12,227 nucleotides of DNA from a bacterium (GTDB taxonomy: Bacteria; JAJVIF01; JAGGVT01), in NCBI GenBank assembly GCA_021157815.1, contig JAGGVT010000010.1, forward strand, positions 1 through 12,227, written 5' to 3'. The position numbers and the translations under genes are program-made. Position 1 is the first letter of the stretch; every line of letters starts with the position of its first letter. The notes beneath the pieces were generated by a model. That model saw nothing but the letters and a program-made list of their open reading frames with translations. It was not told the origin of the DNA and ran no database searches. Shown here in pieces: positions 1,635 through 12,197 of this stretch.

Positions 1635-1790
1635 CCCCCACCCCAACCCTCCCCGCGAGCGGGGAGGGAGAATGTTGTCTCTTCCCTTCGCAATTGTATA
1701 GAGGAGAATGTTGTCTCTTCCCTTCGCAATTGTATAGACCGGATATATTATTTAAAAATGCAAAAGCATCTCCCCCGTTCGCGGGGGAAT
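1635..1790 (+). repeat. Composite two-hairpin intergenic repeat, copy 1
   Basis: The element runs from a C-rich head (CCCCCACCCC), through a GC-rich palindrome with 10-nt arms CCCTCCCCGC (1647-1656) and GCGGGGAGGG (1659-1668), across an AT-rich spacer, to a second hairpin TCCCCCG-TTCG-CGGGGGA (1771-1788). The same order of parts, including matching spacer sequence (TGTTGT, TTCGCAA, CGGATAT, AAATGCAAAA), occurs inverted at 11251-11372. Without its internal 36-bp duplication this copy is about 120 bp, close to the 122 bp of the other. It fills the gap between two minus-strand genes and codes for nothing. It looks like a MITE- or REP-type non-autonomous repeat; no transposase is present in the window. 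Confidence 0.8.
1667..1738 (+). repeat. Perfect 36-bp tandem duplication
   Basis: Positions 1667-1702 and 1703-1738 are identical 36-base units beginning GGAGAATGTTGTC. The unit is a multiple of three, so it does not close the minus-strand reading frame and would appear as RREETTFS twice in an over-extended protein call for the downstream gene. The second copy of the element, at 11251-11372, has only one unit, so the duplication is local to copy 1. Confidence 0.95.
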
Positions 1791-1815
1791 TAAAAGGGGG
1801 GATTAGCTCATGTAC

Positions 1816-5971: not shown

Positions 5972-8395
5972 TTATTTTTCAGTGTTTTCTTTTTGTGGTT
6001 TTCTGTCTAGCAATCCAATTAGAATAAGGAAAATTAAGGCAGCCGCGCTGACTATTCCACCTCTTACAACTTCGATTCCGTCATACCACATGAAGAGTTT
6101 GTGATTGCCCTCTGGTACGGCGATAGCGCGAAACGCCAAATTCGCCTCGATTATTTCAACCTCTTCGCCATCCAGTTTTGCGCGCCACAGTGGATGGTAT
6201 GTGTCCGCAATATATAAAAGGCAATCTTGAGGAGCGTTGAATTCAAGTTCAACCGTGGTGTTTGTTTTTTTCAGATTGATATTACTCGATTGGTAATTTC
6301 GTAATTTTCCGCTTGATTTAAGAACGCTACCATCTGAAAATGCAGGCTCATCGCTTAGAAGGATTTTGTTTCTGAAATCATCCGTATTGATATCTTTGTC
6401 ATAATCTTCAAGTAACTCGTAATCGCAAATCAATCGTGCGAATGATGGAGTCTTTCGATTCAGTTTGTATATTTGGAAAGGTTCATTTAAAACAGGCGGA
6501 CCGAACATCTCCTCCAGTTCTGGTTCATCCTTTGCGAAACAGTATTCAAGGCCGGTCGCCTGGACAAAAAGCCCTTTGGGATTAAGAGATTCAAGAGTTT
6601 TCAAGGTGAACATTATACGGTCGCGCATAACTGTATCAGGCGCGGTAACATCGAAGAAGTGACTGTAATTCCCCAGCATCAGGGAGTCATAACCGAAAAC
6701 ATCGTTCATCTTAAATTTTGCTGGCAGATTTGGCGGGAAGAGTGAATCCTGGCGTTCTCCTCGTGTTATGTTGAAGTTGTCCGGGAAATACCGGATTATT
6801 CTGCCATCGTCGCAGATTTCCTTTATTTTGGCAACATCATCGTTAAAAGACATTGGAGACGGGTGAGCGAAATATGCGTATTGGTAAAACATCGCCAGAA
6901 GCCCTACTGACATGAAAATAACAAGGCAAATAATCGCGACTGATTGGTGAATTCGACGTCCCCATGCGTGAATCCCCATTATCACAAGTAGTAATGCGGT
7001 TAATCCAAGGTAAACGCCCATTGCAATTTTATCGAGTGATTCGCTCCACCTGAAAATCTCATATTCTCGATTGTAGGTATGCAGTGGCGGAATTAACAAC
7101 AATGCAAACTGGAGAATTACAACAGCAATCGCCGTGGTCATAACAAGATTGGAGCGTTCATGAAGTTTTGATAATTTGTCAAGTCCCAGCGCGGCAAGGA
7201 AAAACAGAATGAAATAGAATGTCTCTAATGGCAGAAACATCGTGATAGACCATCCGGGAATTATTCTCGCCACAATCTGATAAACAGGTGGAACAAAGCA
7301 TAAAAAGGCAATGAGCAGGAAATATATTTTAATTGCCCTGAATCGTCTGCTGGCGGTGAAAAGCCCGATCAATGCGAGGAACACAATTATCGAACCTGTA
7401 AACTGGCGAGTTGTGTAGATATCCCTGTCAAATCTCGGATTGATAATCAAAGATTTTTTTGACAGCTGATAAAGAATAAGATTCCCAACGCTGAAATCCT
7501 TTCCCGCTTTTTCAAGATTCCCTTTCTTACGAGCGATTAAGTCCTGCGTGGATTCAAACTGCTTCTTTTCGGATGAGATACGCCTGTTTGATTCCCTGCT
7601 GTAATTGTAGGTCGGATAATTCTGGACAGCTGAAATAAGTCCGCCGGCAACCGCCATGATTAAAACCGCGACAATCCATCTTTTAACCGATGCTTCCCAC
7701 TTGAACGATTTATGAAATCGTCGCCAAAGGAAATAGATCGCCACGAAGTAGAAAAAGTGCGCTACGTGAATCGGGTAACCCGCGATTAATAGCTGCCCAA
7801 TGCAGAATGCTCCAAGGCAGGCATCCGAAAGTTTGTTGCGTTCAAGAAAACGGTCGTGAAATAGAAGTATTGGCGCAATCCAGATAAATGTCGCGACCTC
7901 AGGAGGATAGACATACATCATCCATCCGCTGAGGAAAAATGCAAGTCCGCCAAACAGCGATACAAACTGGCTTAGACGCCAGTTTCGTAAAAACCAGTAG
8001 AAAAACAGCGTGCCGAAAATCGCCATGATTAAAGAATACATTCCGGTAATCAATTGGGCTGGCGCGAGAAGCGCGAGCGCGAAAGGCACATGAAATATCG
8101 GTACCAGATGATTTGCATATAGAGGTGTTCCGCAGCTCGAATACTGATTCCAATGCGGGAAATTCCCGTTTTTGATTTCCTCTTGCACCATCGGAAACCA
8201 GACGCCGTACTCCATGTTGATATCATAAAAAATTGTCTTAATTTCAGTTTCGCTGAAATCAGCCCGCCATGGATAGTAACTCTTCCAGCCATCGGGATAA
8301 ATCGGCGTTGCCTGGAAGATCATCGGCGAGAATCTGATGATTATCACCAGAAGTAGAACGAGAATCGCGATTATGTCTTTTTTACGTTCTGTCAT
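5972..8395 (-). CDS. YfhO-like polytopic membrane protein, paralog A
   Basis: An 807-residue membrane protein with about 12-13 membrane segments in its first 510 residues and one more at the C-terminus (about 779-796). After the first helix (8-27) comes an extracytoplasmic loop with Asp35 (YPDGWKSYYPWR) and the motif FPHWNQYSSCGTPLYAN (79-95), the typical position of acidic and aromatic catalytic-type residues in GT-C fold glycosyltransferases. A C-terminal extracytoplasmic beta domain carries IADTYHPLWRAKLDGEEVEI (729-748) and AFRAIAVPEGNHKLFMWYDG, the hallmark of YfhO family proteins. YfhO-type proteins are linked to lipid-linked sugar transfer onto envelope polymers. The donor and acceptor here are unknown. 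The start ATG at 8395 lacks a good ribosome site and overlaps the stop of a small upstream ORF by ATGA. It is closely related to the gene at 8672-11104. Confidence 0.93.
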   Translation of the reverse strand: MTERKKDIIAILVLLLVIIIRFSPMIFQATPIYPDGWKSYYPWRADFSETEIKTIFYDINMEYGVWFPMVQEEIKNGNFPHWNQYSSCGTPLYANHLVPIFHVPFALALLAPAQLITGMYSLIMAIFGTLFFYWFLRNWRLSQFVSLFGGLAFFLSGWMMYVYPPEVATFIWIAPILLFHDRFLERNKLSDACLGAFCIGQLLIAGYPIHVAHFFYFVAIYFLWRRFHKSFKWEASVKRWIVAVLIMAVAGGLISAVQNYPTYNYSRESNRRISSEKKQFESTQDLIARKKGNLEKAGKDFSVGNLILYQLSKKSLIINPRFDRDIYTTRQFTGSIIVFLALIGLFTASRRFRAIKIYFLLIAFLCFVPPVYQIVARIIPGWSITMFLPLETFYFILFFLAALGLDKLSKLHERSNLVMTTAIAVVILQFALLLIPPLHTYNREYEIFRWSESLDKIAMGVYLGLTALLLVIMGIHAWGRRIHQSVAIICLVIFMSVGLLAMFYQYAYFAHPSPMSFNDDVAKIKEICDDGRIIRYFPDNFNITRGERQDSLFPPNLPAKFKMNDVFGYDSLMLGNYSHFFDVTAPDTVMRDRIMFTLKTLESLNPKGLFVQATGLEYCFAKDEPELEEMFGPPVLNEPFQIYKLNRKTPSFARLICDYELLEDYDKDINTDDFRNKILLSDEPAFSDGSVLKSSGKLRNYQSSNINLKKTNTTVELEFNAPQDCLLYIADTYHPLWRAKLDGEEVEIIEANLAFRAIAVPEGNHKLFMWYDGIEVVRGGIVSAAALIFLILIGLLDRKPQKENTEK

Positions 8396-8630: not shown

Positions 8631-8673
8631 AACCCTCTGCTATTTTTATTTCCCTCTGGGTTAGCAGAGGGTT
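8631..8673 (-). terminator. Hairpin at the end of YfhO paralog B
   Basis: Read on the minus strand, AACCCTCTGCTA (8673-8662) pairs over 12 bp with TAGCAGAGGGTT (8642-8631), followed by TTTT and then AGAG. The hairpin overlaps the TAA stop (8674-8672). A second internal CAGAGGG (8658-8652) offers an alternative shorter stem with the same left arm. It is likely a terminator or 3'-end stabiliser, although the T-tract is short. Confidence 0.5.
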
Positions 8674-11104
8674 ACCTCCCCCTGTTATCTTTTTTCCTGT
8701 CTATGAGTCCAATTAGAATACAAATCAGAAGGCTTATTGCGCTGACCACGCCTCCTGCCCTGACCTCAATTCCATCATACCACATGAACAATTCGTGGTT
8801 TCCTTTCGGGACTGCAATGGCACGGAACGCATAATTTGCCTGTAGAATTTCGACTTCCTCGCCATCCAGTTTGGCTCGCCAGCGTGGATGGAAAGTATCC
8901 GCGATGAATAACACACAATCATTGGATACCTCAAAATCGGTTCTGTATGCCGTTGAATTTCTCTCAAAAGATAATACTGTCAGACTGGCATTATTCTTTT
9001 CAGAGGATTCCAGTCCTGGTCTGTTCAGGATTACAGGCGGTTTATCCAGAATAACCTTGTTTCTGAAATTGTCCGTGTAAGAATTATCCTGATAGCCATC
9101 GACAAATTCAAATTCTGTAACCGCTTTCATATATGGGGAACCGGCAAGTTCAGACGTGTGCAAATCATATATCCTGATATCGCTCTCATCGTAAACAGTA
9201 TTCCCGTTTGAAAATGGAATCGCCTCTGATTGCTTTTCCATGATGTATCTTGTGCCGGTTGATTGTATGAAAAGCCCGTTCGGATTCAGCGATTCAGCGC
9301 CTAAAATATGAAATGTTCCCCTGCTTCGAAGAACCGAACCCGGCGCGGCTTCTATCATGAACTCCTCCATGTTTGCCAGCATCATGTTGTCATAGCCGAG
9401 AGCGTCCATCATTTCAAATCTGGATGGCGTATTTGGAGGAAGGATATATTCGAGTTTTTCTTTGAAAGAAAGCCGTGGCTGTTCTGTAGAATATCTTGCG
9501 AATCTGCCATCGTTTGCGATTGCGGTAATTTTCTTCATATTGCTGTCATCAGGCATGTATTGCTTATCAGCGAAGTATGAGTAAAGATAGCAATGCGCAA
9601 GAATTCCCGCGATTATAAACGCTGTTAATCCTGCTGATATGTGAACGGACTTCAACCTGCAACTGAAAGTACGCGCTGCAATCAGGATTAGAACCAGTAT
9701 TGAGATTACCATGAACACGATTAAAGATATCGCATCCTGTGAAATGTTCCAGTGGTAATTTGCGTTTTCCAATTTCAGTATAGACGGATGCAGAAGGCAA
9801 AGTAATCCACTAAGAATTGCCATCACAAGTGAGAATATTCCGACCAGGCGGTTTTTGCCTTTGAGTTTTTCCAGGAAATCGAGACCCAGCACTGCCATGA
9901 AAAACAGCAGGAAGAAAAACACCTCGCGCGGATTTAATGCAGATATCGACCATCCGGGAATGAATCGCGCTACAAGAAGAAATATGGGACCGACGAGGAA
10001 GAATATCCCGAAGATAACGAAGAATATTTTTATCAGGTTGAATCGCCTGTGAGCCGCGAACAGCCCAAGCAGCGCTAGAAATACGATTACTGGTCCCGCG
10101 AATGTACGGCTTTCGTTGAAATCAATGTTGAAGTTGGGAATTATTATCGTTGTTTTTTTCCTGATTAAATTCATGATTACATTCACGATGCTCCTGTCAG
10201 CGGTTCCCATGAACTCATCTGTTTGAAGCATCTGTTTCTTTTGTTCTATTATCTCATCCGGCGATTGGAACATCTTCTGTTCCGATGACACGCTGCGATT
10301 AGTCAGCTGCATGAATTTGTATGTAGGATAATTCTGAACCGCTGATATAAGAACTCCGATAATCGCCATCATCAAAACAGCGAAAACCCATCTTTTAACC
10401 GGCACATTCCAGTTGAAATTTCTGTAAAAATATCGCCAAGCTACATACGCAGCGATGAAATAGAAAAAGTGAACAATCATAACCGGATATCCGCCGATTA
10501 AAAGCTGCCCTATAAAAAACGCAGCCCAGCAGGCATCGGACATACGATTGCTTTTGAGAAATCTGTCATAGAAAAGCAGGATTGGCGCAATCCATATTAG
10601 CGATGCCACCTCAGGCGGGTATAAATACATCTGCCAGCCTGAAAGGAAAAATGCAAGCCCTCCGAAGAGTGAAACGAAAACGCTGAAATTCCAGTTGCGC
10701 ATGAACCAGTAGAAGAAAAGGGTTCCGATTATGGACATCAGGAATATGTATCCGGCAAAAACCAAATCACCGGGAAACAGCAGCGCTATTGCGAAAGGGA
10801 GATGAAACACGGGAATAAGATGGTCGGCGTACCACGGCATGCCGCATCCTGAATACTGGTTCCAATGCGGAAACCGTCCCTCGCTGATTTCCTTTTTGAC
10901 CATCGGAAACCAAGTGCCGTATTCCATGTTGGAATCGTAGTTGATGGTTTTTATTTCACTCGATGAGAAATCCGCTGCCCACGGGTAGTAGCTCTTCCAG
11001 CTGTCCGTATTAATCGGCGTACCGGAAAAGATAAAAGGCGCGAAGCGAATTATAATCACCAGGAGGAGAATCGCTGTCGCAAGAATGTCCTTTCGTTTTT
11101 CCAT
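8672..11104 (-). CDS. YfhO-like polytopic membrane protein, paralog B
   Basis: An 810-residue protein of the same architecture as the gene at 5972-8395 and alignable with it throughout. It has an N-terminal helix (8-27), then TDSWKSYYPWAADF with Asp34, then FPHWNQYSGCGMPWYAD (79-95), followed by YLYPPEVASLIWIAPILLF and about 12 membrane helices up to residue 520. An extracytoplasmic domain ends in IADTFHPRWRAKLDGEEVEI (734-753), AFRAIAVPKGNHELFMWYDG and a last helix near residue 790. The shared blocks point to an in-place duplication, while the loop around residues 285-330 and the region 520-720 have diverged, so acceptor or donor specificity may differ. GT-C-like sugar transfer at the outer face of the inner membrane is inferred from the family. 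The ATG at 11104 has only a weak site (TGGAAC). It is transcribed away from the phnC-like gene. Confidence 0.93.
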   Translation of the reverse strand: MEKRKDILATAILLLVIIIRFAPFIFSGTPINTDSWKSYYPWAADFSSSEIKTINYDSNMEYGTWFPMVKKEISEGRFPHWNQYSGCGMPWYADHLIPVFHLPFAIALLFPGDLVFAGYIFLMSIIGTLFFYWFMRNWNFSVFVSLFGGLAFFLSGWQMYLYPPEVASLIWIAPILLFYDRFLKSNRMSDACWAAFFIGQLLIGGYPVMIVHFFYFIAAYVAWRYFYRNFNWNVPVKRWVFAVLMMAIIGVLISAVQNYPTYKFMQLTNRSVSSEQKMFQSPDEIIEQKKQMLQTDEFMGTADRSIVNVIMNLIRKKTTIIIPNFNIDFNESRTFAGPVIVFLALLGLFAAHRRFNLIKIFFVIFGIFFLVGPIFLLVARFIPGWSISALNPREVFFFLLFFMAVLGLDFLEKLKGKNRLVGIFSLVMAILSGLLCLLHPSILKLENANYHWNISQDAISLIVFMVISILVLILIAARTFSCRLKSVHISAGLTAFIIAGILAHCYLYSYFADKQYMPDDSNMKKITAIANDGRFARYSTEQPRLSFKEKLEYILPPNTPSRFEMMDALGYDNMMLANMEEFMIEAAPGSVLRSRGTFHILGAESLNPNGLFIQSTGTRYIMEKQSEAIPFSNGNTVYDESDIRIYDLHTSELAGSPYMKAVTEFEFVDGYQDNSYTDNFRNKVILDKPPVILNRPGLESSEKNNASLTVLSFERNSTAYRTDFEVSNDCVLFIADTFHPRWRAKLDGEEVEILQANYAFRAIAVPKGNHELFMWYDGIEVRAGGVVSAISLLICILIGLIDRKKDNRGR

Positions 11105-11250
11105 GAGTTCCAGTTAAAAATATCCTAACATCTATATCGGATTTAAAGAAGAAGTCATTTGTATATAATAGGAAGATCGAATATTGAAACTGCTGAAAAA
11201 GTACACCCCCACTTAATCCCGTGTTTAAACCATGTCCGTGGACAAAACAA

Positions 11251-11372
11251 TCCCCCCGCGAGCAGGGGGAAATGTTTTTTGCATTTGTCAACAATGATAT
11301 CCGATCTATCTACTTGCGAAGGGGAAAAACAACAATCTCCCTCCCCGCTCGCGGGGAGGGCTGGGGTGGGGG
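11251..11372 (-). repeat. Composite two-hairpin intergenic repeat, copy 2
   Basis: This is the inverted counterpart of the element at 1635-1790. On the minus strand it starts CCCCCACCCCAGCCC, forms the same GC-rich palindrome with arms at 11339-11348 and 11351-11360, continues through the shared spacer (TGTTGT, TTCGCAA, GATCGGATAT, AAATGCAAAA) and ends in a second C5/G5 hairpin (11251-11270). It has one copy of the 36-bp unit that is duplicated in copy 1, and several substitutions, so the two are related but not a recent identical pair. Confidence 0.8.
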
Positions 11373-11426: not shown

Positions 11427-12197
11427 GTGTCAGATAAAATTCTTGAAATATCCGGATTGTCGAAAACGTACCCGGACGGCACCGAGGCGTTGAAAAATGT
11501 TTCTCTGAACGTTAAACGCGGAGAGCGTGTTGTGATTCTTGGGTTGTCAGGCGCGGGGAAATCGACGTTCCTTCGATGCATCAACCGTCTGGTAAAGCCG
11601 GATACAGGAACGATAAAATTCAAACCTGATAATGACAGTAAAACCTATGAGATGGCAAATCTTGCGGATTACAGGCTTTCTGAACCGAGAAGCAGAATCG
11701 GAATGATATTCCAGCAGTTCAATCTTGTTGATCGTCTTACCGTTATTAAAAATGTTCTCACAGGTGGATTAAGCAGGTACGGCACGCTGTCATCGTTGTT
11801 TCACATTTTTCCGCCGTCAGAAGTAGCCAGGGCAAAATCGTGTATTGAGCGGGTTGAATTGACCGAGCGCATGTATGTGCGAGCGGCTGATTTAAGCGGC
11901 GGACAGAAGCAGCGGGTAGGAATCGCTCGCGCGTTGATGCAAAGCCCATCCCTTATGCTCGCTGATGAGCCGGTCGCGAGCCTTGACCCGGCTACAAGTA
12001 AAATCATACTGGATGTTCTGGCAAGAGTAACCGAAGAGGACAACATTACAACATTGATAAATCTTCACTCGATTGAATTCGCTCGCGGTTTTGCGAATCT
12101 CGTTATCGCGTTTAAAAACGGTGAATTGGTTTTTGACGGCGCTATGAGTGAGTTAGATGATGGAAGACTGGATGCGATTTATTCTTCTAAAAGATAA
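11427..12197 (+). CDS. phnC: Phosphonate-type ABC transporter ATP-binding protein
   Basis: A 256-residue ATPase with every expected motif: Walker A GLSGAGKST (39-47), Q-loop IFQQFNL (94-100), signature LSGGQKQR (156-163), Walker B LMLADE (176-181), D-loop SLDP and switch His214 (INLHSIEFAR). The combination SGAGKSTFLRCINRLVKP with GIARALMQSPSLMLADEPVA is typical of PhnC, the cytoplasmic ATPase that powers import of phosphonates, and sometimes phosphite or phosphate esters, with permease PhnE and binding protein PhnD. Those partners are not in the window, so the substrate is inferred from family only. The frame is closed upstream by TGA, and no ATG precedes the domain, so the GTG at 11427 is the only sensible start. 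There is no ribosome site. An overlapping ATG at 11425 is out of frame. Length is normal for the family. Confidence 0.9.
   Translation: MSDKILEISGLSKTYPDGTEALKNVSLNVKRGERVVILGLSGAGKSTFLRCINRLVKPDTGTIKFKPDNDSKTYEMANLADYRLSEPRSRIGMIFQQFNLVDRLTVIKNVLTGGLSRYGTLSSLFHIFPPSEVARAKSCIERVELTERMYVRAADLSGGQKQRVGIARALMQSPSLMLADEPVASLDPATSKIILDVLARVTEEDNITTLINLHSIEFARGFANLVIAFKNGELVFDGAMSELDDGRLDAIYSSKR

Follow-up and report, generated by a model that had tools for sequence, protein, structure and literature searches.

A dispersed two-hairpin repeat of triplex-type strand plan, many copies of which lie in small TIR elements

Repeats of the BoxC/PIT/TM-ECO class share a strand plan in which a pyrimidine stem is followed by a loop, a purine stem, a short loop and a second purine strand (Holder et al. 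2015, PMC4666352). In E. coli, close inverted pairs of two triplex motif types have been reported, and no association of the motifs with transposons, phages or plasmids was seen; triplex motifs have also been linked to instability (PMC4666352). The locus described here lies in a window of 12,227 bp (the whole stretch of DNA analysed), which is one complete contig of a 3.22-Mb assembly of 221 contigs that is 90.9% complete. The window contains a two-hairpin unit in two copies, and the sequence of each hairpin, with the adjoining C-rich head or G-rich tail included, conforms to the plan of a purine-motif intrastrand triplex of the BoxC/PIT/TM class. A pyrimidine stem, a loop and a complementary purine stem on one strand are found in both hairpins of both copies, and hairpin 2 (CCCCCC-GCTCGC-GGGGGG-ATTAA-GGGGGGG on the plus strand) has the same plan as hairpin 1. 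A second purine strand that mirrors the stem after a short loop is present in the consensus and in copy 1, while copy 2 is without the motif 2 strand. Since both hairpins fit the triplex plan, the unit may be described as an inverted motif pair around a spacer of ~67 bp, with the putative third strands facing outward.

The opposite orientation of the two copies, as well as their gene context, had been recognized in an earlier note on this DNA and is borne out by the sequences and by the window repeat search, in which inverted pairs linking the copies extend over 68 nt (88% complementary), 44 nt (82%) and hairpin 2 (85%; Table 1). Copy 1 is located between two genes on the minus strand (902-~1603 and 1816-2439). 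The genes on either side of copy 2 (8672-11104 on the minus strand, 11427-12197 on the plus strand) are divergent. The 36-bp duplication within copy 1 is perfect, and the true end of this copy is placed at ~1801 because the unit includes the G-run that follows hairpin 2. In the unit, the stems are bordered by C-runs on the outside and by AGAATG or AAATATTT on the inside. Elsewhere in the window, the adjacent minus-strand genes at 5972-8395 and 8672-11104 encode similar proteins of ~810 aa, which match YfhO weakly at scores slightly under the Pfam cut-off, and are apparently a tandem gene duplication.

Table 1. Features of the two window copies of the two-hairpin unit.
Feature	Position	Strand	Source of plan
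Copy 1, with local duplication	1635-1801	+	
Copy 1, C-rich head CCCCCACCCC, complementary to the putative third strand of motif 1	1635-1644	+	PMC4666352
Copy 1, hairpin 1, CCCTCCCC-GCGAGC-GGGGAGGG	1647-1668	+	
Copy 1, 36-bp unit, first tandem copy	1667-1702	+	
Copy 1, 36-bp unit, second tandem copy	1703-1738	+	
Copy 1, spacer, duplication included	1669-1771	+	
Copy 1, hairpin 2, CCCCC-GTTCGC-GGGGG	1772-1787	+	
Copy 1, terminal G-run (motif 2, putative third strand)	1796-1801	+	
Copy 2, terminal G-run lost	11249-11372	-	
Copy 2, C-rich head	11363-11372	-	
Copy 2, hairpin 1	11339-11360	-	
Copy 2, hairpin 2	11252-11269	-	

A search of the whole genome with copy 2, which the earlier note had proposed, yielded 40 scored places, full-length or nearly so, among 102 first-look candidates (E 1e-69 to 1e-26), with 81-92% identity, and the spacers recur along with the palindromes. 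A total of 58 distinct copies was retrieved, some of them truncated at contig ends, and these counts are lower bounds; the order and spacing of the parts are constant among the 58. By itself, the hairpin 1 pattern CCCTCCCC-N6-GGGGAGGG occurs at 69 places in the genome, versus 1 for a reversed-pattern control. Across 39 aligned copies, the mean majority-base fraction is 0.95-0.98 in the stems, 0.98-0.996 in the hairpin loops, 0.955 and 0.886 in the two third strands, 0.846 in the spacer and 0.70-0.73 in the arms of the carrier element described below. The copies are intergenic, with none of the 44 testable ones deep within an ORF of at least 150 aa. Recurrence of the unit, spacer included, at dispersed intergenic places throughout the genome indicates that it has been multiplied or maintained as one whole, in support of what the earlier note had concluded from the conserved spacer. 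The prospect that the two window copies might be the only ones, located in a segmental duplication, did not come true: the flanks of copies 1 and 2 are unrelated, which rules out such a duplication as their origin, and there are about 40 other places. The spacer-bearing unit was not found in the 39 other genomes searched, in which only single-hairpin pieces were found (in two genomes, G003 and G032), so that the amplification looks specific to the present lineage. The spacer had no matches in viral contigs, and no Rfam family was found at the unit, the sole match being a tRNA elsewhere.

In four copies the spacer is expanded beside hairpin 1, with a unit of 36 bp present twice in copy 1, 32 bp nine times at locus L066, 34 bp twice at L072 and 43 bp 2.7 times at L074. 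The differing lengths of these units, which share the same starting edge, point to separate events. Contigs were also seen to break within arrays, at the end of L065 inside a tandem array of unit variants with 31-bp units, and at the ends of L067 and L071 in arrays with another spacer and with heads ~146 bp apart.

Mirror symmetry of the third strand is predicted by a triplex and not by a plain hairpin or a quadruplex. Outside this genome, the register of the third strand was assessed at 104 loci (Armatimonadota, Omnitrophota, Planctomycetota, Chloroflexota, Proteobacteria and others) that had been chosen for motif 1 alone. Within 130 bp, a pyrimidine/purine hairpin lies downstream in 43 of these loci and upstream in 19. 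Of the 43 downstream hairpins, 30 have a third strand that mirrors the stem perfectly, and 10 have one that matches it perfectly in the direct register. Where motif 2 stems are asymmetric, the mirror register is better in 24 cases and the direct register in 0, with 18 ties; the 24 mirror cases come from ~13 assemblies and are therefore not 24 independent events. Motif 1 fits the mirror and direct registers alike, and part of its fit stems from the search pattern. The motifs are predicted to fold as triplexes.

The carrier is a gene-less element of ~197 bp (usually 194-201 bp) with the ends GAGCnTGTCGGGAAAGG...CCTTTCCCGACAnGCTC and 17-bp TIRs. For 46 unit copies both ends could be classified: two carrier arms are present in 20, one in 13 and none in 13, although this scoring undercounts the arms, as real arms had contaminated its null, and the profile alignment is the better guide. 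Conversely, 39 elements of less than 620 bp with the 17-bp TIRs were found, and their interiors comprise the candidate triplex pair (20 elements), a pair of GGGTGCCGCCC hairpins (12), a CCGGGCTTGACCCGG pair (3), a TGGGAGCGCTGG pair (1), ATTCCCGCGAAAGC repeats (2) and one other. The second of these interiors is the palindrome that, on contig C84, borders a Y1 transposase gene on both sides (57/57 bp upstream and 49-51 bp downstream), which identifies it as a RAYT-type REP pair. TIR elements of near-equal length (194-201 bp) that enclose unrelated interiors were observed at L095, L099, L113-L117, L130, L133, L141, L143 and L152. The window also contains, at 2742-2941, a second repeat family, an element of ~200 bp whose inverted arms measure 62 nt (TGGGAGCGCTGG...CCAGCGCTCCCA) and that occurs at 40 or more places in the genome with 76-94% identity, and a relative of this repeat unit lies inside a carrier TIR element on contig C104 (L154).

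Like a MITE, the carrier combines TIRs with a target site duplication, which is 4 bp long and is seen in 17 of the 39 carriers, versus 5.6 expected and a maximum of 14 in 1000 shuffles. The carriers occupy the centers (loops) of other palindromes, for example AGCAGAGGGT-TTAA-ACCCTCTGCT, GTCATTCCCGC-TTTC-GCGGGAATGAC and CACCATGC-TAAA-GCATGGTG, and of 12 positions in their outer flanks, 7.7 match as palindromes, compared with 4.9 in shuffles. The first of these target palindromes is found empty at 43 places (at most 3 mismatches; control 0). Some carriers are flanked by tetranucleotides that are reverse complements (GAAA/TTTC) rather than direct copies, for which plain insertion does not account; at self-complementary loops such as TTAA, reverse-complement flanks are equivalent to a direct duplication. 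At L002, L021 and L045, the flank is inverted: the carriers inside GTCATTCCCGC...GCGGGAATGAC are preceded by GAAA and followed by TTTC. A search of the class for the carrier ends gave one match, in G003, within a coding frame and chance-like.

The window copies have no TIRs around them, and carrier ends are found at neither; copy 1 alone shows a weak left-arm trace, its profile alignment starting at position 16. In the 199-position profile, most TIR-less copies begin on the left at 23-32, and on the right TIR-less copies extend to 156-183, close to the C- and G-runs at the outer edges. These copies, both window copies included, fit either of two histories, in which they moved or recombined out alone, or in which they are old insertions with decayed arms.

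The two-hairpin unit is thus real, multicopy and more structured than the earlier note could discern: its whole-unit recurrence stood, while the outer third strands and the ~197-bp TIR carrier had been overlooked. We put at about two in three the probability that the unit is a dispersed mobile repeat, with a core formed by an inverted pair of purine-motif triplex palindromes and their ~67-bp spacer, and that many of its copies are the cargo of TIR elements. A transposase recognizing the carrier ends would have acted in trans on these elements, and movement of the carriers in this way would have multiplied most of the unit copies. Within paired carrier ends no transposase gene was found, nor was an autonomous carrier copy with the same ends, in the loci retrieved from this assembly, which is fragmented at repeats, so that the mover is one that we infer. 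DUF772 (IS1182-type) transposases do occur, and GGGGCTGTTGAAAAAGC, which precedes one of them, resembles the carrier end but differs from it; they were rejected as the carrier source since the ends are similar, not identical. Once single-stranded, the motifs would fold and stall synthesis, and slippage at a stalled motif would produce tandem expansions adjoining hairpin 1, where expansions are expected if the folded motif stalls synthesis. Transposition and any host function of the unit are, like its folding, inferred; a host function would not be required, and any influence on transcription or rearrangement would be incidental.

The inverted pair with its spacer has the architecture of a BIME/REPIN, and it might instead be a REP doublet whose own RAYT (Y1) mobilizes it in single-stranded form, with the TIR elements having merely picked up the pair. 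Such a history would be in keeping with the nine Y1_Tnp genes in the genome, with the sibling cargo that is the palindrome pair flanking the Y1 gene on C84, and with the termination of TIR-less copies near the outer C- and G-runs. However, neither hairpin type lies within 800 bp of any of the nine Y1 genes (0/9; assembly 90.9% complete), only one Y1-like ORF was found in the loci from other genomes, more than 1 kb from the motif, and the stems are without a GTAG or CGTC tag. The earlier note had suggested a REP-associated Y1 transposase as the driver and a look-up of one elsewhere; the look-up yielded the nine genes with other palindromes at their flanks, which does not support such a driver, and we consider a REP doublet rather unlikely. 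By eye, the palindromes near these genes (loci L064, L077, L079-L084 and L065) differ, and include TTCGTACCCGGTACGAA, GGTGTCAGACACC, GGGGACAGTCCCC, TAACCCGGCAACGC and others.

That the conserved structure is a G-quadruplex on the G-rich strands (with i-motifs on the opposite strand), instead of a triplex, appears improbable. While GGGGAGGGCTGGGGTGGGGG in motif 1 provides four G-tracts with loops of 1-2 nt, a quadruplex does not require the perfect hairpin seen in both motifs, nor does it require the A/T that interrupts the third strand to fall in mirror position (mirror 24, direct 0 for motif 2). Selection of the hairpins as transcription terminators or mRNA stabilizers, rather than as mobile DNA, is very improbable: terminator-like matches at both copies exceed those in shuffles (3 versus 0.3 and 6 versus 0.5), and the intergenic position of the copies is compatible with this role, but selection for termination would not conserve the spacer, the outer heads and the TIR shell, nor create 4-bp duplications, and between the divergent genes around copy 2 no terminator is needed.

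Small TIR elements with target duplications, in which many of the copies lie, offer a concrete, testable route for the spread of BoxC/PIT triplex repeats. Beyond this, we tentatively raise the possibility of a nested modular system, in which one ~197-bp TIR shell with swappable hairpin-pair cargoes (triplex, a RAYT's REP, CCGGG) has the 4-bp loops of unrelated palindromes as its targets. Palindromic repeats of several origins would then spread together, with structure-based loop targeting and cargo exchange as the rule. As RAYT-linked pairs share the shell, and target palindromes are both empty and occupied in one genome, the system lends itself to direct study of how elements insert into hairpin loops.

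The components, namely triplex motif pairs, MITEs and insertion into REPs, are each of a known kind; in the literature covered, which included few subscription journals, we found no description of a triplex pair as the cargo of a TIR element, beside RAYT-linked pairs in one shell. The unit resembles BoxC/PIT/TM-ECO repeats (PMC4666352) in its strand plan, intergenic location, many copies and close inverted pairs. Unlike TM-ECO, its stems (CCCTCCCC and CCCCCC) and A/T positions depart from the 9-nt CCCTCNCCC consensus, the strict form of which (CCCTCNCCC N3-6 GGGNGAGGG N3 GGGNGAGGG; PMC4666352) is not matched, and its pairs are nearly always joined via a conserved spacer, many of them inside TIR elements. 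With BIME/REPIN and their RAYTs (PMC2817692, PMC3116915) it shares two inverted palindromes, with a spacer, that move or persist as a unit, but it lacks a GTAG tag, and no cognate Y1 gene bordered by these palindromes was found. The carrier is similar to MITEs (reviewed in PMC10969869) in being short, gene-less and multicopy with TIRs and a 4-bp target duplication, and differs from them in that one shell holds several unrelated hairpin-pair cargoes at an almost equal total length. Enclosure of a hairpin pair by long palindromic sequence is also a feature of the REP dimers of A. variabilis and H. neapolitanus (PMC3733652), whereas the enclosing ends here hold different cargoes and the target palindromes also occur empty. 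Finally, IS elements that insert into REPs (PMC1525189) likewise target repetitive extragenic palindromes; in contrast, the elements in this genome are gene-less, ~197 bp in length and located in several unrelated target palindromes.
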